40,448 nt of DNA from Coriobacteriaceae bacterium (GTDB taxonomy: Bacteria > Actinomycetota > Coriobacteriia > Coriobacteriales > QAMH01), in the NCBI GenBank assembly GCA_021203765.1, contig JAJQAN010000055.1:1-40448 (forward strand), given 5' to 3'. Positions 10,899-20,146 of this stretch are shown here, in pieces. Numbering within the stretch: the first letter of the stretch is position 1; the number at the start of each line of letters is the position of its first letter. The notes beneath the pieces were generated by a model. It saw only the letters and a list, made by a program, of their open reading frames with translations. It was not told the origin of the DNA and did not search any database. The translations under genes and the position numbers were made by a program.

Positions 10899-11849
10899 CT
10901 AGGACGTTTCGTCGTCGCTCGACCTGGTCTGCGGCCTGACCTTGAAGGAGATCGACGAGGTCGGACAGGTCCGGGCGCAGGCGCCGCATCGCTGGCAGCT
11001 TCCGAGCTGCTGGACGGTGTCTGTCGCATGCAGGTCGATCTGTTCGGGACAGACCGCCAGGCAGGCGGAGCATTCCTTGCCCTCGCTCGTGATGAGGCAG
11101 GTCGACGCCTTCACCTTCGGCCGGAAGCCGACCGCGAACTGCCCGACGATGTTGAGCAGCCCCGCGATGGGACAGAGGGACAGGCACCAGACACGGCAGA
11201 TGATCAGCTCGACGACGAGGGCGGCCGGGAACACGAGCGCCGACCAGGTCATCTGCTTGTCGACGATCAGGTGCCAAAGCGAGCCGACCGTCCCGAAGGT
11301 GAGCCCGACCGGGCAGATGAGGCAGAAGAGCGGGATGCCGGCGACGATGGTCGCGACGATGACGGCGAGCAGGGCCCAGGTACGTTTGTCGCGGGCCAGG
11401 TGGCGCAGGCTGCCGATGAGGCTCCAGGCCTGGCAGCCGCCACTCCCCTCCTTTGCGCAGGCCTCGTGCTTGGCCGGCTTGGGGTCGCGCTTGAAGAAGC
11501 GGCGGATGCGCGGGGCGGGACAGCCCCACGCGCACCAGGCGCGTCCGAAGACGAGCGCGAAGATGAGCAGGATGAGCAGGGCGATGAAGCCGACGGGCAG
11601 GAAGCTGCCTGATGCGATCATGGCCTCGATGCCGCCGAGCGGGCAGAGCAAGAAGAAGCTGCCGATCCCGAACGAGGACGGCGTGCCGAGCCCGCTGTCG
11701 AAGGCGAGCGACACGATGACGGCGACCAGGATCACCAGCAGCGTGACCGTCTGCAGGCGTTTCATGTTGGAGGCAACGCGGTGTTCGTGGCTGACCTCGG
11801 CCGGTTTTTCCTCTGCCGGGGCCGCCTCCTGTTTGTCCTCCTCCGTCAC
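10899..11849 (-). CDS. napH: NapH-like polytopic quinol dehydrogenase subunit
   Basis: 316 residues. Four to six membrane segments carry the two C-x3-C-P motifs of the NapH/CcoG-like family (CAWGCP and CLICP), and two C-terminal 4Fe-4S sites follow (C-x2-C-x3-C-P and C-x2-C-x2-C-x3-C-P). NapH takes electrons from menaquinol and passes them to NapG. The GTG at 11849 overlaps the napG stop (GTGA) and has an excellent GGAAGGGGG just before it. Last gene of the dms operon. In this setting it probably offers an extra quinol-to-periplasm route for the DmsA-type enzyme, not for a nitrate reductase, since napA and napB are absent. Confidence 0.87.
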   Translation of the reverse strand: MTEEDKQEAAPAEEKPAEVSHEHRVASNMKRLQTVTLLVILVAVIVSLAFDSGLGTPSSFGIGSFFLLCPLGGIEAMIASGSFLPVGFIALLILLIFALVFGRAWCAWGCPAPRIRRFFKRDPKPAKHEACAKEGSGGCQAWSLIGSLRHLARDKRTWALLAVIVATIVAGIPLFCLICPVGLTFGTVGSLWHLIVDKQMTWSALVFPAALVVELIICRVWCLSLCPIAGLLNIVGQFAVGFRPKVKASTCLITSEGKECSACLAVCPEQIDLHATDTVQQLGSCQRCGACARTCPTSSISFKVRPQTRSSDDETS

Positions 11850-12472
11850 AGCGCACCCCCTTCCTCGGCATGGGTACGCTCGGTCACGACGATGATGCCG
11901 CGCTCGCTGCCGCCGGAAAAGGACGTGAGCACGTTGGCCGGGCAGTCCCGCTCGCAGGTGCCGCAGCCGTTGCAGAGATCCTCGTCGACGACCGGCAGAC
12001 GGTCCTCGTCGAAGGAGACCGCGCCGTAGGGACAGTTCTCCACGCAGACGCCGCAGCTGCCCCGCGTGTAGAAGGCCAGGCAGCGGTCCGGCTGGACCTC
12101 GGCCACGCCGATGCGCCCCGGGACGGGGACGTAGGGATCCGAGGGCACGATCGCCTCGGTCGGACAGACCTCGTAGCATTTCTGGCAGAACGTGCAGCAG
12201 TCCTTCGCGAAGCTCACCACGGGGGTGCGGACCTGCAGGACGCCGACCTCGATGCCGGCCGGCTCGAGTATGTCGGTCGGGCAGACGCTGATGCAGCGCT
12301 CGCAGTGGATGCAGCGCGCCATGAACTCGTCTTCGTCGACAGACCCCGGCGGGCGCAGGACGTTTGCGGTATCGGGCAAAAAGCGCGCGGCGGCGCCGAT
12401 GCCGGCGCAGACGACGACGGCGCCGGCGCCGGCGACGAACCCCCTCCGTGACATGATCTTGCTGGAAGCCAT
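11846..12472 (-). CDS. napG: NapG-like Tat-exported 4Fe-4S ferredoxin
   Basis: 208 residues with a Tat signal (S-R-R-G-F-V at 8-13 plus a hydrophobic Ala/Gly/Val stretch) and four cysteine clusters: C-x2-C-x2-C-x3-CP, C-x2-C-x2-C-x3-CP, C-x2-C-x3-CP with an upstream partner Cys, and C-x2-C-x2-C-x3-CP. This is the NapG/MauM pattern of an extracytoplasmic electron carrier that works with NapH. ATG at 12472 sits 25 bases after the torD stop; GGAG lies 9 bases before it. It is translationally coupled to napH by a 4-base overlap. Partner inferred: the DmsAB pair of the same operon. Confidence 0.88.
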   Translation of the reverse strand: MASSKIMSRRGFVAGAGAVVVCAGIGAAARFLPDTANVLRPPGSVDEDEFMARCIHCERCISVCPTDILEPAGIEVGVLQVRTPVVSFAKDCCTFCQKCYEVCPTEAIVPSDPYVPVPGRIGVAEVQPDRCLAFYTRGSCGVCVENCPYGAVSFDEDRLPVVDEDLCNGCGTCERDCPANVLTSFSGGSERGIIVVTERTHAEEGGAL

Positions 12473-12497
12473 GGGCCTTGCTCCCGTCTCGTCAGGC

Positions 12498-13235
12498 CTA
12501 CGCGCTGGCGGCTTCGGCGTCTTGCTGGATACGTGGCCAGTCCGAGGTCTGCTTGATCTCCTCGAGCAAGGCCGAGAGCATCTCGTGGGACTGCTCGAGC
12601 GTGCCGATCGCCACCTCGAGCATCCCGAGGTAGAAGGCAAGCTTAGCATAGTCCTTGGCCGCATCGAGCAGCCCTCCTATCCAGTTGAGGAGGTGCTTTT
12701 CGATGAAATCGAGCTGGTGTTCGAGATTTTCTTGGAAGGCCGAAAGGTCCTCATGGCCGCGCAGCAGGACCGCCGCCGCGCGGCTCATGCAGGACAGATA
12801 CTCGAACTCGAAGGCGATGTGGTCTTCGGGCTCGTGCAGGTCCGGATCGACCAGAAAGCCGTCGCGTTTGTAGACGCGCACGACATCGTCACGCGATTCC
12901 TGCATGACGATGTGCTCCTCGCTCGTGAAGGCGGACTCGTAGGGAACGGCGGTGCGCCGCTCCCTGGTCTGGATGCTGCTCGCCAGAAAGACCCGGGCGT
13001 ATTCGCAGGCAAGCTGCGTGCGCTTGTCGTGGGCCGCGAAGTTGAAGTAACGGCGCACGAGACGGTAGCCGGCGTCGAGGTGCTCGTTGCCGGTGTCGCT
13101 CGGGAACTCCGTCTCTTCCAGGACCTCGATCGTCTCGTCGTTGAGCTCCTTGAAGAACATCTGGGAGAGGAACAGGTACGTGTCCGCGATCCCCTCGAAA
13201 TAGTCCGCAAGCTGATCTGCGTCTTGTGTCGCCAT
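12498..13235 (-). CDS. TorD/DmsD-family molybdoenzyme chaperone
   Basis: 245 all-helical residues with the TorD-family signatures Y-E-S-x-F (YESAFTSEEH, about residue 98) and E-P-E-D-H-I-A-x-E-F-E-Y-L (about residue 134). Such chaperones bind the Tat signal of the catalytic subunit and keep the apoenzyme competent for cofactor insertion in the cytoplasm; here the client is surely the DmsA-like protein four genes upstream in the same operon. ATG at 13235 follows a GAGGTGG. The 54-base gap from dmsC is the largest inside the operon and shows no terminator. Confidence 0.9.
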   Translation of the reverse strand: MATQDADQLADYFEGIADTYLFLSQMFFKELNDETIEVLEETEFPSDTGNEHLDAGYRLVRRYFNFAAHDKRTQLACEYARVFLASSIQTRERRTAVPYESAFTSEEHIVMQESRDDVVRVYKRDGFLVDPDLHEPEDHIAFEFEYLSCMSRAAAVLLRGHEDLSAFQENLEHQLDFIEKHLLNWIGGLLDAAKDYAKLAFYLGMLEVAIGTLEQSHEMLSALLEEIKQTSDWPRIQQDAEAASA

Positions 13236-13289: not shown

Positions 13290-14192
13290 TCAGTCGAGGG
13301 ACACCAGGAAGAAGTTCAGTATGGGCGTCCCGATGATCCACATGACGATACGCACGAGCGTGGCCGCGGCGACACCGCCGACGACGGCGAGGACGCCGAG
13401 TGCGATCGCCGTGTTCCGAGCGGCCTTGTAGGCGATGATGCCGGCGACGATCACGAGGGCCGATCCGACCAGGGCGAGTATCGCGAAGAGCAGGGCGTTT
13501 TGGACCTGCGTGACGTAGCTCATGGTCGCGATCATGAAGATGACGGTGACGATGATGCCGAGCGCACCGCCGATGGCGGCCAGGATCCCGGCGAAGGGGA
13601 TATCGGAGCCCTCGTAGCCTTCCGACGGCTTCGTGATGACCTTGATGAAGCGACACCAGCGGCCGGCGCCCGCAGGGGCCGGCTCGTAGTTCTCCGGCCT
13701 CGTCAACGCCTTGACGAGCAGCAACACGCCGCCGCCGGCAGCGGCGGCCGTCCCGCAGTAGGCGAGCGGCAGGGAAAACGTCATCCACGCGGGGCGTGAC
13801 TCCATCGTGTAGGAGTTGCCGCACTCGTAGGAGAAGACCACGCAGACGATCATCGCGAGGATCCCGAAGAGCAGGCGCGCCCTCGGCGCCGCGTTGCGGA
13901 CGAGCAGGATGAAGTAGATCGCGATCAAGACGATGCAGATGCCGATGAGCGTCGCCTCGATGAAGATGCCCGAGGTGGGGTGCTGCAGGGCGTTGAGCAC
14001 ACGGTCGGGATGCGAAAGGTGCGTTATGGACGCCAGACCGCCGACCGCCAGAATGATGACGGCGATGATGCATTCCAGCCTCGAGGGCTCCGCTGCCTTC
14101 CTGATGAGGGACTGCAGCATCGCGAAGGCGAAGAACCAGGCGCCCGCACCGGAGATGACGGTGAATAAGACGAGTGACCACTGGATCTCCAT
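13290..14192 (-). CDS. dmsC: DmsC-like membrane anchor subunit
   Basis: 300 residues with eight predicted hydrophobic segments, close to DmsC (about 287). The N-terminus (EIQWSLVLFT) and the H-L-S-H-P-D-R-V-L-N-A-L-Q-H segment after the second membrane span match DmsC anchors, which bind menaquinol and hold the A and B subunits to the membrane. The ATG at 14192 overlaps the dmsB stop by one base (TGATG), so it is coupled. A longer open frame upstream is antisense-type over dmsB and is not used. DmsC rather than NrfD is favoured by the N-terminal motif. Confidence 0.85.
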   Translation of the reverse strand: MEIQWSLVLFTVISGAGAWFFAFAMLQSLIRKAAEPSRLECIIAVIILAVGGLASITHLSHPDRVLNALQHPTSGIFIEATLIGICIVLIAIYFILLVRNAAPRARLLFGILAMIVCVVFSYECGNSYTMESRPAWMTFSLPLAYCGTAAAAGGGVLLLVKALTRPENYEPAPAGAGRWCRFIKVITKPSEGYEGSDIPFAGILAAIGGALGIIVTVIFMIATMSYVTQVQNALLFAILALVGSALVIVAGIIAYKAARNTAIALGVLAVVGGVAAATLVRIVMWIIGTPILNFFLVSLD

Positions 14193-14833
14193 CAGTCCAC
14201 GCTCCCCTCGGTCGTCATGTACTTGCTCGTCGTCTGCTGCAGGTCGTCCACGCGCCACTCGCCGAACTTCGACGAGAAGATGTAGGCGGAAAGCGGGCCG
14301 TTGCCGACGTCGGGCAGATGATGCACCGAGCCGGGCTCGGCCGCCTCGGCGCGGGCGATCTCCTTGGAGACGTCGGATTCCGGATCGTCCAGATCGCCGT
14401 AGAAGCGGGCGGTGCCGCAGCAGTTCTTCACGCAGGCGGGCTTCTCGCCCGCGATGGTCAGGTGGTTGCAGAGCGTGCACTTCTCCACGACCTTCTGCTC
14501 CTCGTTCCAGGAGCGGACGCCGTAGGGGCAGGCCATCATGCAGTACTTGCAGCCGATGCACTTCTCCTTGTTGACGAGGACCATGTCGGTCTGCTCGTCA
14601 CGGTAGCTCGCGCCGGTCGGGCAGACCTGGACGCAGGGCGAGTTCTCGCACTGTTGGCACATGACCGACAGCCAGAACGTGTGGACGTCGGGGAACTCGC
14701 CGTAGGGCTCGATCTGGACGACCTTGTTCCAGCGTTCCCCCAAAGAGACGTCGTTTTCCATCTTGCAGGCGACCTCGCAGCTGTAGCAGCCGATGCAGCG
14801 GTCGACGTTGATAACCAGGCAGTTACGCGGCAT
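14192..14833 (-). CDS. dmsB: DmsB-like electron-transfer subunit, four 4Fe-4S clusters
   Basis: 213 residues. Four cysteine groups are visible: C13-x2-C-x2-C-x3-C, then MCQQCENSPCVQVCP, CIGCKYCMMACP, and CTLC...C-x3-C. This is the DmsB/PhsB/NrfC pattern that wires the membrane anchor to the catalytic subunit. Two ATGs are possible: 14842 lies only 2 bases after the strong GGGAGGAGG, too close, so 14833 (MPRNCLVINV) with 11 bases is preferred; neither is ideal. The gene overlaps the dmsA stop by about 10 bases. No signal peptide, as usual: it is exported with DmsA. Confidence 0.92.
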   Translation of the reverse strand: MPRNCLVINVDRCIGCYSCEVACKMENDVSLGERWNKVVQIEPYGEFPDVHTFWLSVMCQQCENSPCVQVCPTGASYRDEQTDMVLVNKEKCIGCKYCMMACPYGVRSWNEEQKVVEKCTLCNHLTIAGEKPACVKNCCGTARFYGDLDDPESDVSKEIARAEAAEPGSVHHLPDVGNGPLSAYIFSSKFGEWRVDDLQQTTSKYMTTEGSVD

Positions 14834-17609
14834 AAACGGCATTACCTCCTCCCGTGTTCTCGGAATACTCGGGCAGCCAGGGCGTGAAGTCCTTCGCCTC
14901 GAGCCAGCAGCCCTCGGGCGGCGCGTCGGCCTTCGTGATGTTGATCGTGATGCCCCGCAGGGTGTAGGTCCCGTAGACGTCGTTGAACGGGCATTCGTCG
15001 TTGTTCTGCGTCAGCAGGTTGATGTTGAAGCACTGCCAGGCGCGGTTGGGGTCGTCGGAGTCGAGCAGTTCGGGATTCCAGAAACGCTCCTGGTAGATGA
15101 CCTTGGGCGCGACGCTCTTGGTGATGCGGCAGCGTCCCTGCGTACGGCCGCGCTTGGACTCGAGCCAGAGCCAGTCGCCGTCCTCGACGCCGATCTCGGC
15201 CGCCGTCTCGGGGTTGATCCAGGTCTCCGGATACGGGTAGATCTCACGCGTGTAGGGCACGTTGCGCAGCGTCCCGTGGTGGAAGGCCGGCAGACGCCCC
15301 TGCGTGAGCGCATAAGGGTAGGCCGGGTCGTAGTTCTCCTCGCCTTCGACCGGCGTCTCGAAGGGCTCGAGGTAGTACGGCAGCGGGTTGTAGTTGTCCG
15401 AAAGCGGGTAAACGTCGGTGGCCGGCTCCATCGAGCCGGTGCCGTCGATCGCCCCGGTGTTGCCGAGCAGGATGTTGCCGTCGAAGTAGGGCTCGCAGCG
15501 CTTCGAGGTCGTGTTGAAGCCGACCGGCTTGCCGTCGTTGTCCGGGTCGGGGTCCAGGTGGCTGTCGTAGGACTTGTCCGCGTATTCCTGGATCGTCTGG
15601 TACTCCGAGGGCGCCTGGGCGTCGAAGGTCGCCCAGTCCCACTTCTTGGTGTCGTAGTAGTTGCTCCCGACGAAGTAGCCGACGAAGTCCATGTACTCCT
15701 CGTAGGTGCGCCAGTAGGTGCCGTAGAAGTCGCCGCAGACCTTCGGGTCGAAGGACATCTTGGCCCGCTCATGGCCGCGGTCGGCCAAGGCGGCCGCCAT
15801 CCAGGACCAGTGCATGCATTCGTCGACCGCCTCGTAGAGCTGCGTGCAGGCGCGGCGGATGGCGTAGGTGTTCAGACGGTCCTGGGCGTAGTTGGTCTCG
15901 AGCCATTCGGCCGTGGGCAGGACGTAGTCGGCCAGACAGACGCTCGTGGTCGTCCAGTGCATGTACATGTGCACGTTCATGTCGGTCGTCAGCATCGCGT
16001 TGTAGATGCGCGTGGCGTTGCCGATCATCGCGAGCTTGTTGCCGCTGCGCTCCATCCAGACGCGCGGACGGTACGGCTCGCCGGTCTCGATCGCCTTGAG
16101 GACGGTCGGGATGTGGGATGCCATCCAATGCCCGAGACCCTTGTGCTCGGTGTAGCCCAGTCGGGCGTTGACCTCCTTTTCGGGCATCTCGAGCGGGTGC
16201 GGACCGTGCAGGCCGAAGGGCATGACGACGTAGTTGCACGGTTCGACGAAACACGGACGGTTCTGCACGATGGCGCCCGGCGTGCGGATCGCGCCGCGCA
16301 GGATGTCGAGGATGGCGCTCGCCTGGGCGGCCTGGGCGGAGTTGCGGGCCTGGTCGGTCGCCACGCCGAGGGAGATGCCGCCGTGCGGCGTTCCGTCGAT
16401 GTAGAGGTTGATGGCCTCCTCGATCTTGTCGGCCTGCAGCCAGCAGACCTCGGCCGCCTTCTCGAGCGTCCACTCGTCGCACTGCTCCTTGAGATGTTGG
16501 AAGGCCGTGCGTGCCTTGGTGCCGTCGGGCAGCTCGTATTCGCCGAACATGGCCGGGTCGAGGCTCTTGTCGTAGGGGTACGGCATGGCCTTGACGCTCT
16601 TGGACTTCTTGTCGTAGACGACGTATTCGTCCTTGCTGCCGAGGCCGAGCTCGTTGGCACGGTAGGTGAGGCCGGTCTTGGAGTTGACGAGGAACGGCAG
16701 GTTGGTCCACTCGCGGCAGAACTCCTCGTTCCAGGCCTCATGCTCGATGATGTAGCGGATCCACGCGAGCATCAGCGCCACGTCGGTGCCCGGGCGTATG
16801 GGCAGCCACACGTCGGCGCGCGCCGCATCCGGCGTCATACGGGGATCGATGACCACCGACTTCATGCCGTTGCTGCGCAGCTCGGTGACGATGCGCCCGG
16901 TCGAGCCGATGCCGTGGGTTGACGGGCCGACGCCCCACATGACGTAGACCTGTGTCTGGCAGTCGGGCAGGTAGACCTCGGTGACAGGACCGTCTGCCAG
17001 GGAGGTGTCGGCCGTGCCGTTCAGGCACGGTTCCATGTGGTTGCGCGGCAGATAGCACTGCGCGCAGCCCGGCTCGAAGAAGTTGCCGCCGCCCCACACG
17101 GTGAGGAAGCGGGCAGGCGAGAAGAACTGGGGGTTGCCGCCGCCGCCGGTGGACAGCACCAGGCTCTTCACTCCCTCCTTCTGATAGTGCTCCCACAGGA
17201 CGTCGGCGATCTCGTTGATCGCCTCCTCCCATGAGAGGCGCTCCCATTCGTTGACGCCGCGTTCGCCGACCCGCTTCATCGGGTACTTGATGCGGTTGGG
17301 ATTGTAGAGCGCCTGGATGCCGGCAAGGCCCTTCGCACATGCGGCGCCCTTGTTCATCGGATCGCCCGGGTCGCCTTCGAGCTTGACGACGCGGCCGTCC
17401 CGGACATGGGCGATGATGCCGCAGTTGTTCAGGCAGGCGCGGCAGATGGTGCGGATCTGCTGTTCCTCACCCGCCTCCGCCGCCTCGGCGGGCTCGACCT
17501 CCTGCAGGTGCGAGGCAACCGTGCCCGACATGGCGGCCGCAGCGGTCGTGAACAGGCCCATCTGCACGAAACCGCGTCTGCTGATGTCCTTCTTCAACAA
17601 CATTGCCAC
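14823..17609 (-). CDS. dmsA: DmsA-like Tat-exported molybdopterin oxidoreductase
   Basis: 928 residues. The N-terminus has a Tat signal (S-R-R-G-F-V at 10-15, then an Ala-rich core to about residue 45). A 4Fe-4S site follows: C56-x2-C59-x3-C63-x27-C91. The molybdopterin fold covers the rest, with a C-terminal molydopterin-dinucleotide-binding domain (W-I-N-P-E-T-A-A-E-I-G-V-E-D-G-D). The region where the Mo ligand is expected reads GCAQCYLPRNH (Cys182, Cys185), with no obvious Ser in the DMSO-reductase position, so the ligand may be Cys. Coriobacteriia carry many such enzymes acting on S/N-oxides, catechols and other acceptors; the substrate cannot be read from sequence. First of dmsABC-torD-napGH; ATG at 17609 has GAGGTGG before it. 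Confidence 0.92.
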   Translation of the reverse strand: MAMLLKKDISRRGFVQMGLFTTAAAAMSGTVASHLQEVEPAEAAEAGEEQQIRTICRACLNNCGIIAHVRDGRVVKLEGDPGDPMNKGAACAKGLAGIQALYNPNRIKYPMKRVGERGVNEWERLSWEEAINEIADVLWEHYQKEGVKSLVLSTGGGGNPQFFSPARFLTVWGGGNFFEPGCAQCYLPRNHMEPCLNGTADTSLADGPVTEVYLPDCQTQVYVMWGVGPSTHGIGSTGRIVTELRSNGMKSVVIDPRMTPDAARADVWLPIRPGTDVALMLAWIRYIIEHEAWNEEFCREWTNLPFLVNSKTGLTYRANELGLGSKDEYVVYDKKSKSVKAMPYPYDKSLDPAMFGEYELPDGTKARTAFQHLKEQCDEWTLEKAAEVCWLQADKIEEAINLYIDGTPHGGISLGVATDQARNSAQAAQASAILDILRGAIRTPGAIVQNRPCFVEPCNYVVMPFGLHGPHPLEMPEKEVNARLGYTEHKGLGHWMASHIPTVLKAIETGEPYRPRVWMERSGNKLAMIGNATRIYNAMLTTDMNVHMYMHWTTTSVCLADYVLPTAEWLETNYAQDRLNTYAIRRACTQLYEAVDECMHWSWMAAALADRGHERAKMSFDPKVCGDFYGTYWRTYEEYMDFVGYFVGSNYYDTKKWDWATFDAQAPSEYQTIQEYADKSYDSHLDPDPDNDGKPVGFNTTSKRCEPYFDGNILLGNTGAIDGTGSMEPATDVYPLSDNYNPLPYYLEPFETPVEGEENYDPAYPYALTQGRLPAFHHGTLRNVPYTREIYPYPETWINPETAAEIGVEDGDWLWLESKRGRTQGRCRITKSVAPKVIYQERFWNPELLDSDDPNRAWQCFNINLLTQNNDECPFNDVYGTYTLRGITINITKADAPPEGCWLEAKDFTPWLPEYSENTGGGNAVYAA

Positions 17610-17681: not shown

Positions 17682-18293
17682 CTAGTCCTCCGCCAAGACC
17701 GCCCGTCCCGCATCGGTCGTGCGCCATGCGTCGGTCCACTCGATCGCCCCGGCGCTCTCCAAAGCGTCGATGAAGTACTGGGCGTAGACCTTCGTCTGGT
17801 GTGTCTCGGGATCGGGCTGAAGCTGGGGGAAGGCCTCGAGGACCTCCTCGAGCTTGGGAAGGTTGAGGCCGTCGGGCGTGTCGCAGGCCTCCATGCCCGC
17901 GCGGTAGACGTCCGCGTAGTGGGGACGCTCCTCGAAAAGTTCGTGGATGGCGGTCTCGGGCTCGTAGCGTGACAGCAGGTAGCTGCCACCCTCGGTGATC
18001 CGGACGGAGTCATCCACGCTCGCGTCGTCCGCGACGTTCTCGTCGAGCTGGAGGTCTTCGAGCGTGCCGTCGTAGGGCTTTCCGTCGACGAGAAGGTCTT
18101 CTTCGAGCGCCCCGTTGCGGATGAGGATGTCTATGGAGGTGGAGGGTGACTGACGGTAGGTCTCGCTCCAGACCTCCTCGGCGCGCTCTTCGAGCTCGCC
18201 ACGATCGGATATCTCCTGCTCTGCACACAGCGACAGGACGGCAAGGAGCGGCCGTTTGAGCGAAGGATTGTGTTCGATGATATCCGAGTCCAT
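17682..18293 (-). CDS. Acidic two-part winged-helix-like protein upstream of dmsA
   Basis: 203 residues, acidic (many D/E), no signal peptide or membrane segment. I do not recognise a named family. Two stretches look like the last helix and wing of winged-helix domains: R-I-T-E-G-G-S-Y-L-L near residue 100 and W-R-T-T-D-A-G-R-A-V-L at the C-terminus, each preceded by two or three predicted helices; the first half also has a long helix pair (SLKRPLLAVLSLC). ATG at 18293 has a strong GGGAAGGGGG 5 bases upstream and is preferred to two earlier in-frame ATGs. It is the first gene of the dms transcription unit. It could be a local regulator, or an accessory protein for assembly of the DmsA-like enzyme; acidity argues against simple DNA binding. 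Confidence 0.72.
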   Translation of the reverse strand: MDSDIIEHNPSLKRPLLAVLSLCAEQEISDRGELEERAEEVWSETYRQSPSTSIDILIRNGALEEDLLVDGKPYDGTLEDLQLDENVADDASVDDSVRITEGGSYLLSRYEPETAIHELFEERPHYADVYRAGMEACDTPDGLNLPKLEEVLEAFPQLQPDPETHQTKVYAQYFIDALESAGAIEWTDAWRTTDAGRAVLAED

Positions 18294-18377
18294 GGAAGCC
18301 CCCTTCCCGACTCGCGACGCCTCTCTCATGACGTCGACTTGCATTCTAGGAGGTGAAAAGGCGCTGCACATCCTTGT

Positions 18378-18432
18378 AAAAGGACCATTTCAGCCCCTTA
18401 AAAAAGGACTATTTTGCATAATCAGAAAAGGA
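18378..18432 (+). repeat. Three AAAAGGA repeats at exact 24-bp spacing
   Basis: AAAAGGA occurs at 18378-18384, 18402-18408 and 18426-18432, each 24 bp from the next; the first two extend to AAAAGGAC-x-ATTT. A fourth partial copy (AAAAGG) lies at 18356. The first copy also pairs with TCCTT at 18371 as a short dyad. This is a likely operator array for a DNA-binding regulator, the neighbouring LuxR-type protein being the natural candidate. Confidence 0.6.
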
Positions 18433-18455
18433 TGAGCGGGGCCGTCTGCACAGGT

Positions 18456-18487
18456 AAATCTTATAGTCATCTGAGGATATAAGAAAT
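18456..18487 (+). repeat. Imperfect inverted repeat, possible LuxR-type operator
   Basis: AAATCTTATA (18456-18465) and TATAAGAAAT (18478-18487) pair at 8 of 10 positions around a 12-base centre. It lies 110 bases before the LuxR gene start. A dyad of this size suits a dimeric HTH protein; autoregulation is an inference. Confidence 0.45.
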
Positions 18488-18598
18488 CTGCCCCGTGCAG
18501 GAAAACGCAGGTAAGCAGTACACTTCTACCAAGCATTAAACCCCGCAGGCAGGGTACGCAAGCCGCAGGAAGGGCAGCTGGGGACGTGGGGGGTTCGG

Positions 18599-20146
18599 AT
18601 GGCTGACGAATCGAGAGATCTTGTCGAAGGGCATGTCTCGCCGCTGATGGACCAGTGGTCGGGGCTGCGCTTCCTCGGCCTGAGCGCCTGGTGGGCATGG
18701 ATCTGGCTCTGCTACAACTCAGTCGAGATTACGAGGTTCTTCCCATCAGGTGAGCAGACCGGCGACATCTATCTCATCTACCTCGTCTCCACCTTGGCCA
18801 TCGCCTTGGCCATGTTCATCGCGGCCGGCGCGTGGCGCAGCTTCACCAAGTTCGTCGACCGGCGCGGCGTCGTCATCGCCTTCGGCATCCTCGCGGCGCT
18901 CTCGACGGTCCTCCTGGGCTTCTCCAAGCTCATCGACGGGGAGGCCTGCTTTATAATCGCGGCAATCTGCACCGGGCTGACCACCTCGTTTCTCTGCCTG
19001 AAGGTCGGCCGCGTCTTCAGCAGCGTCTCCCTGGCGGAATCCCTGACGGCGAGCGGGATCTCGCTCCTCTTCTCCGCCCTGCTCTATTTCGTCTGCATCG
19101 GCATCCCCGAGGAGATACGTCTGTACTGCATCGCGGCGCTTCCGCTCATATCGGCGCTGCTCCTCACCATGAAATCCCACGACCCCTTCGAGGTGATACC
19201 ACTCGAACATACCGAGGACAAGGAGCAGTCGGCCCGCATACGACACATGTACATCAGGCTCGTCGTCGCCTCCGCCCTCGTCGCGATCACCGCGGGCATC
19301 GGCAAGGGCGTCGAATCACAGCTCCTCGACTTCGAGGAATTCCAGCTGCAGGGAAGCATCATCACGCTCGGCATCCTCGTCATCGCCATCTTCATCATCG
19401 TCGCGGTCAACCACCGCAACATCGCACGGGGTGCCGGCCTGGTCTACCAGGCCCTCATGATCTTAGGCATCGCGATGATGATCGCAACCTGCTTCGGCTT
19501 CAACATCGGCTACCTCAACATCGGGAAGGAATCCCTCTGGATCGTCCTGTCCTGCTTCATGGCCTATTTCGCCTTCCGCTTCGACTTCCCGCCGATACGG
19601 ATCTTCGCGGTCGGCCAGGGCGTCTACTTCCTCGCCTCGACCTTGGGCTGGTTCATCGGGGCCTTGATCGCGCCGTACTACGGCGAGACGATGGTCGTCG
19701 TGGGTGTCGCCGTCATCATGGCCTTCCTCGTCGTACTGGTGCTCGTCTACGTCTTTCCCGCAAGCGTCATCGAGGAGGCGACGACCTGGACCGACACCGG
19801 CCTCGAACAGATGCGCAGGCTCAACCAGACATCCGAGGGAGAGGGCACCGAAGGAAGCGGGCAGGCTTCGGAGGCGGCGGAGGAGCTGCCCGGGGGTGTA
19901 GAGGCCTCAGGCGTCGCGGAAACCTCGATGGGATTTAGCCTCGAGCGCGCGAGGGACCCGCACTACGGCCTGTCGGCACGCGAGCTGGAGATCCTGTTCC
20001 TCTTCGCGCAGGGCAGAAGCGCCAGCTGGATAGGCGACAACCTCTACATCTCGACGAACACGGTGCGCTCACACTTGCGCGCCATCTACACGAAACTCGA
20101 CGTGCACACGCGCCAGGATCTGCTCGATTTTCTTTCAGGTGAATAA
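18599..20146 (+). CDS. Membrane-bound LuxR-type regulator with multi-TM sensor
   Basis: 515 residues. Residues ~20-395 form about twelve hydrophobic segments resembling an MFS-like membrane domain; a Glu/Gly/Ser-rich linker follows, and residues 453-515 are a GerE/LuxR HTH (LSARELEILFLFAQG, then ISTNTVRSHLRAIYTKLDV). The TM-sensor plus C-terminal LuxR layout is a large paralogous group in Eggerthella-like Coriobacteriia, often divergent from DMSO-reductase-family operons; a few control their neighbouring catabolic enzymes. Here it presumably senses a substrate of the dms module at the membrane. ATG at 18599 follows a GTGGGGGG. No phospho-acceptor receiver domain is present, so control is likely by ligand. 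Confidence 0.92.
   Translation: MADESRDLVEGHVSPLMDQWSGLRFLGLSAWWAWIWLCYNSVEITRFFPSGEQTGDIYLIYLVSTLAIALAMFIAAGAWRSFTKFVDRRGVVIAFGILAALSTVLLGFSKLIDGEACFIIAAICTGLTTSFLCLKVGRVFSSVSLAESLTASGISLLFSALLYFVCIGIPEEIRLYCIAALPLISALLLTMKSHDPFEVIPLEHTEDKEQSARIRHMYIRLVVASALVAITAGIGKGVESQLLDFEEFQLQGSIITLGILVIAIFIIVAVNHRNIARGAGLVYQALMILGIAMMIATCFGFNIGYLNIGKESLWIVLSCFMAYFAFRFDFPPIRIFAVGQGVYFLASTLGWFIGALIAPYYGETMVVVGVAVIMAFLVVLVLVYVFPASVIEEATTWTDTGLEQMRRLNQTSEGEGTEGSGQASEAAEELPGGVEASGVAETSMGFSLERARDPHYGLSARELEILFLFAQGRSASWIGDNLYISTNTVRSHLRAIYTKLDVHTRQDLLDFLSGE

Follow-up and report, generated by a model that had tools for sequence, protein, structure and literature searches.

Between a DMSO reductase-like operon and a gene for a membrane LuxR-type regulator, the window (the whole 40,448-nucleotide stretch of DNA analysed here) contains three copies of the heptamer AAAAGGA. 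Which of the two flanking transcription units do these repeats serve, and which protein might read them? From comparison with related genomes, we consider it quite probable that the array serves the P0002-dmsABC-torD-napGH operon as its operator, through which the membrane LuxR would activate these genes. The genes concerned are:

10899..12595, minus strand: two genes for NapG/NapH-like ferredoxin-type proteins
12498..13235, minus strand: TorD-family chaperone (PF02613)
13290..14204, minus strand: DmsC-like membrane anchor (PF04976)
14192..14842, minus strand: DmsB-like 4Fe-4S subunit
14823..17609, minus strand: P0003, DmsA-like molybdopterin subunit with Tat signal (PF00384, PF01568, PF04879)
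17682..18293, minus strand: P0002, chaperone-like product of the operon's first gene, with a function suggested by its position
18599..20146, plus strand: P0001, membrane LuxR regulator (PF00196 HTH, E 1.8e-13, residues 458-510), the proposed binder

The repeat array and the operon genes

The AAAAGGA copies were identified on the plus strand at 18378-18384, 18402-18408 and 18426-18432, with steps of exactly 24 and 24 bp, as the earlier note had reported. When the 304-bp gap was shuffled with its dinucleotides preserved, 1 of 20,000 shuffles contained an equidistant 7-mer triple, and the only other such triple in the 40-kb window is a simple GC repeat (CGGCGGC). The array is also the sole occurrence in this organism's genome of an AAAAGGA pair at 24-bp spacing. 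A 19-bp unit, CCTTnnAAAAGGACnATTT, is common to the first two copies. The flanks of the outer boxes form a 16-nt inverted repeat around the array that is 81% complementary (18360-18375, GGCGCTGCACATCCTT, and 18428-18443, AAGGATGAGCGGGGCC).

We reset the start of P0002 to the ATG at 18293 (residue 27 of the long ORF). This choice was made because the upstream ATG, at 18371, precedes the predicted operon start (near 18336), and because the orthologues of P0002 begin at the same MxxDxIxHNPxLKxP. The DmsA-like subunit shares 79-82% identity with its Eggerthellaceae orthologues. Among solved structures its top match is acetylene hydratase (2e7z, E 3e-47, N-terminal part), followed by thiosulfate reductase; all of its NCBIfam matches are under the curated cut-offs.

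Promoter anatomy and its conservation

Read on the minus strand, the AAAAGGA copies are TCCTTTT boxes in the predicted promoter of the divergent P0002-dmsABC-torD-napGH operon. The elements of this region, in order toward P0002, are:

18461..18467, minus strand: upstream element ACTATAA (AGAATAA in relatives), 35 bp before the TCC of the distal box
18417..18432, minus strand: upstream (distal) box TCCTTTTCTGATTATG, with the AAAAGGA copy at 18426; contains CATAAT/ATTATG
18393..18408, minus strand: middle box TCCTTTTTTAAGGGGC (AATAGTCCTTTTTTAAGG), with the copy at 18402; extra in the source genome
18369..18384, minus strand: proximal box TCCTTTTACAAGGATG, with the copy at 18378; aligned to the proximal box of nine relatives
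18356..18361, plus strand: weak fourth AAAAGG, 22 bp beyond the copy at 18378, in the spacer before the -10
18343..18348, minus strand: -10 hexamer TAGAAT predicted for the P0002-dms operon, at an offset shared with the hexamers of relatives

No sigma-70-type promoter with a -35 hexamer was identified on either strand between 18200 and 18620. Measured from its TCC, the proximal box is 36 bp from the -10 in the window and 37 bp from it in eight aligned relatives, and its center is at about -41 of the predicted start site. The distal and proximal boxes are 48 bp apart in the window, compared with 45-46 bp in the alignment of relatives. The weak AAAAGG at 18356 has no counterpart in the aligned relatives and is probably not a conserved box.

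Class II activator-dependent promoters have LuxR/NarL-type sites that overlap the -35 position. The array resembles them in the proximal box near -41, which covers the -35 position at a conserved distance from the -10, and in the lack of a -35 hexamer. It differs from them in the number of its boxes (two or three) and in their spacing (45-48 or 24 bp), and its activation is a prediction. Compared with these sites, each box is only partly symmetric (CCTTTTnnGG, CCTTTTACAAGG). By eye, the partial symmetry involves CCTTTTTTAAGG and CCTTTTACAAGG in the window and CCCTTTAGGG and GTCATTTTATGAC in relatives, and there is none at 18426. The distances between boxes, including 24 bp, do not correspond to a whole number of helical turns.

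The same promoter layout was found in the orthologous operons of Eggerthella, Gordonibacter, Adlercreutzia and other Coriobacteriales. It consists of an AGAATAA-like box, a distal TAGTCCTTTTTGA, 45-46 bp, a proximal TCCTTTTnnGGnCATG, 37 bp and a -10, with no -35. With the window included, nine promoters (window plus eight relatives) follow a common pattern of distal box, 45-48 bp, proximal box, 36-37 bp and -10. The aligned consensus is TA[GA]TCCTTTTTGA for the distal box and [CG]TCCTTTTnnGGnCATGnG for the proximal one, and the -10-like hexamers of the relatives are TACAAT, TATACT, TAGAAT, TATGAT and similar. The AGAATAA element is at an equal offset in the window and seven relatives and, in the alignment, one base off in L094. 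TCCTTTT-type boxes are directly upstream of all close P0002 orthologues examined (42-50% identity, from Eggerthella, Gordonibacter, Adlercreutzia and other Eggerthellaceae).

LuxR orthologues were compared in nine cases from named genomes (35-58% identity), and none has the array upstream of luxR; in L049, one of the nine, that gap contains a single box. In every gene arrangement the motif keeps to the operon and not to luxR. As the boxes of relatives are on the operon side, the motif is read on the minus strand, as part of the operon promoter, and the idea of a luxR-side element was given up.

Exact 24-bp phasing is particular to the source genome, and what is conserved is a pair of boxes 45-46 bp apart. 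The middle box has degenerate counterparts in Adlercreutzia (CCTGCTTTTTGA) and L093 (TAGTCCTTGTG) and is absent in the other aligned relatives; the expectation that AAAAGGA would recur at 24-bp steps was thus not borne out. A search of 201 relatives for AAAAGGA pairs exactly 24 bp apart gave scattered single matches in nine other genomes, about as many as for a reversed-pattern control, so exact phasing is no family-wide signature. The earlier note had proposed that the repeats are regulator sites of a membrane LuxR/DMSO reductase pair, to be abandoned if orthologous gaps lacked them. The linkage to this pair stands, and the motif was found when we looked for it in orthologous pairs; the 24-bp step did not carry over.

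CATAAT (18418-18423) is present and was found to have no -35, as noted earlier. However, on the opposite strand it reads ATTATG, which forms the 3' half of the upstream box; the predicted operon -10 is instead TAGAAT on the minus strand. The CTTATA/TATAAG dyad (18460-18465 and 18479-18484) is likewise present, and its CTTATA arm overlaps the conserved ACTATAA element, but no TATAAG arm was observed in the relatives. An autoregulatory promoter at CATAAT on the plus strand was considered and rejected, as CATAAT belongs to a conserved box.

We scanned both strands of the window with matrices built from seven relatives only. The top two distal and top two proximal matches in the window are all copies of the array. 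For the combined architecture, the score in the window was 35.2, compared with 6.8 at the next place and 6.7 or less in 12 shuffled windows. Leave-one-out scans placed the best match at the operon promoter in every orthologous locus (48.5-57.4). L049 (LuxR 35%, DmsA 45%), which is outside the matrices, scored 25.6 with 46-bp spacing (next, -1.6), and the 17 control loci with paralogous or other operons scored 7.9 or less. Counting against the proposed operator, the window boxes, at 12-21 bits, are below those of most relatives (13-30), and both of their spacings deviate (48 bp between boxes and 36 bp to the -10). For the box at 18426 the distal matrix gave 14.5 and the proximal one 14.4; the top match in the 40-kb window to the distal-box matrix is the middle box (20.9). 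As this matrix favours the middle copy, the boxes of the window can be paired in more than one way; assignment of the three to the two conserved ones, ambiguous by sequence, was decided from how far each lies from the -10.

A simple two-box pattern, searched in 399 genomes of the order, gave about 0.25 matches per genome. Six genomes that carry the operon (G000, G160, G051, G107, G244, G258) have exactly one match each, at the P0002-dms promoter, and the pattern is absent from paralogous operons of the same genomes. The promoters of Adlercreutzia (G201, G202) and G218 were missed because one box deviates. A wider regulon for the pattern was considered and rejected, given the single match per genome in the six matching genomes.

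The accompanying regulator and rival explanations

P0001 has a C-terminal HTH, about ten hydrophobic segments (from a simple hydropathy count rather than a dedicated predictor) and an adjacent molybdenum-enzyme operon, features of the 10-12-TM LuxR family. Its clade has 98/98 support in the tree, with L049 on a long branch. Wherever the contig permits, a LuxR of this clade adjoins the P0002-dms operon, and its placement takes four forms. In the window and L049 the gene is divergent at the 5' end of the operon. It is upstream and in line in Adlercreutzia, L046 and L050, downstream and in line in L152, and downstream but convergent in Gordonibacter L083 and Eggerthella L081. In E. sinensis, luxR is beside torD-napGH on one contig and the 5' part of the operon is on another; thus, the link was drawn from the 3' genes. 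Members of the P0001 clade share a conserved recognition helix (ISKNTVRSHLRAIYxKLDVHTRQ), which is different in paralogues. G147 carries an operon relic (L085:7579-8367) with an intact chaperone, about 51 remaining dmsA residues and no LuxR of the P0001 clade. Only a proximal-like box is kept there, and a distal box was not found; this may reflect decay or another binder.

As the same arrangement occurs in related gut bacteria, the array is probably a docking site of the membrane LuxR. From these comparisons we infer P0001 as the binder, activation as its effect and the position of the start site. The membrane domain of P0001, or of its relative elsewhere, would sense a substrate, and the C-terminal HTH would bind the boxes. 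The proximal TCCTTTTnnGGnCATG box would cover the position of the missing -35, centered at about -41, ahead of the -10 TAGAAT (18348-18343), so that P0001 may act as a class II-type activator and bring RNA polymerase to a promoter that has no -35. The distal box, 45-48 bp upstream, could stabilise a second dimer, and the source genome has a further box between. Activation is suggested because the -35 is missing, a box is near -41, and DadR, HcdR and CadR have an activator role (PMC9734109).

The boxes might alternatively bind a non-adjacent factor, such as a redox or global regulator that controls the operon, while the LuxR acts elsewhere. We consider this unlikely, although G147 keeps its proximal-like box without any P0001-clade LuxR and the LuxR as binder of the boxes is itself inferred. 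A global regulator would be expected to have other targets, yet each of the six matching genomes has a single instance of the two-box pattern and none in its paralogous operons, and the sole regulator that tracks the operon through four rearrangements is the P0001-clade LuxR. This association, the clade-specific helix and the distinct boxes of a sister operon (see below) favour the LuxR over a global regulator. Autoregulation, with the array as luxR's own operator and CATAAT as its promoter, is clearly less probable still. The divergent luxR shares the gap with the operon in the window and L049, which makes a side effect on luxR possible. However, relatives with a relocated luxR keep the motif at the operon, with none upstream of luxR, and CATAAT is explained as the opposite strand of a box whose ATG end is conserved.

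That the boxes act in RNA, within a leader or an attenuator, and not as an operator in DNA, is highly improbable: transcription from upstream could pass through them in Adlercreutzia and L090, where they are between two in-line genes, but in all aligned cases they are upstream of the -10 at a fixed distance, and the gene order of the window is divergent. We give practically no weight to a chance or compositional repeat of the A-rich, ribosome-site-like AAAAGGA. The heptamer is indeed frequent in the window (10 copies, compared with 2.1 expected), but the rarity of the phasing in shuffled sequence and the independent conservation in relatives refute this explanation.

Related regulators and a sister operon

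Gut Coriobacteriia have dozens of membrane LuxRs, which are presumed to turn on drug- and diet-metabolising enzymes; one Eggerthella lenta strain has 83 transmembrane LuxR-type proteins (PMC9734109). The same paper describes DadR, HcdR and CadR of E. lenta as related regulators that activate adjacent molybdenum-enzyme promoters in response to substrate. P0001 resembles these, as described there, in its C-terminal LuxR HTH after a many-helix membrane domain, its adjacent molybdenum-enzyme operon and its proposed role as a substrate-specific activator. It differs in belonging to another ortholog group and in the conserved two-box operator proposed here; a term search of that main text (PMC9734109) found no operator for DadR, HcdR or CadR. 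We found no published operator for the membrane LuxR family in the open-access papers searched. The array is thus a new candidate operator for a known kind of regulator and no new kind of system. Being conserved and genome-unique, with a matching helix and tractable relatives (Eggerthella, Gordonibacter), it makes DNA recognition by the family directly testable.

A sister chaperone-dmsABC operon (DmsA 52%) in the same genomes adjoins its own, paralogous membrane LuxR gene, which is not visible on the short contig L150. Upstream of this operon we identified the dyad TGATGCA-AAG-TGCATCA, followed at a distance of about 36 bp by another box, ATGATGCG. The candidate operator sites are:

L148:5414-5463 (G201): perfect dyad TGATGCA-AA[GC]-TGCATCA
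L150:6170-6220 (G237): perfect dyad of the same form
L149 near 7633 (G244): degenerate form of the dyad

As in the window, two boxes are upstream of a chaperone-first reductase operon beside a membrane LuxR gene; the box sequence, however, differs, as would follow from a separate operator for each regulator clade. We tentatively suggest, with somewhat more doubt than belief, that each coriobacterial membrane-LuxR clade has, at its cognate reductase operon, a two-box operator of its own, made up of a distal box and a proximal box that overlaps the -35. If so, a regulator-to-operator code could be read from comparative promoters, with TCCTTTTnnGGnCATG as the entry for the P0001 clade and the TGATGCA/TGCATCA dyad as that for the sister operon. 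The comparative route, by aligning promoters of orthologous operons, may also reach other LuxR groups. In G201 (L147-L148), three tandem chaperone/dms operons occur within about 30 kb together with three membrane LuxR genes. This set resembles a repeated regulator-enzyme cassette and is useful for comparison of operator specificity.
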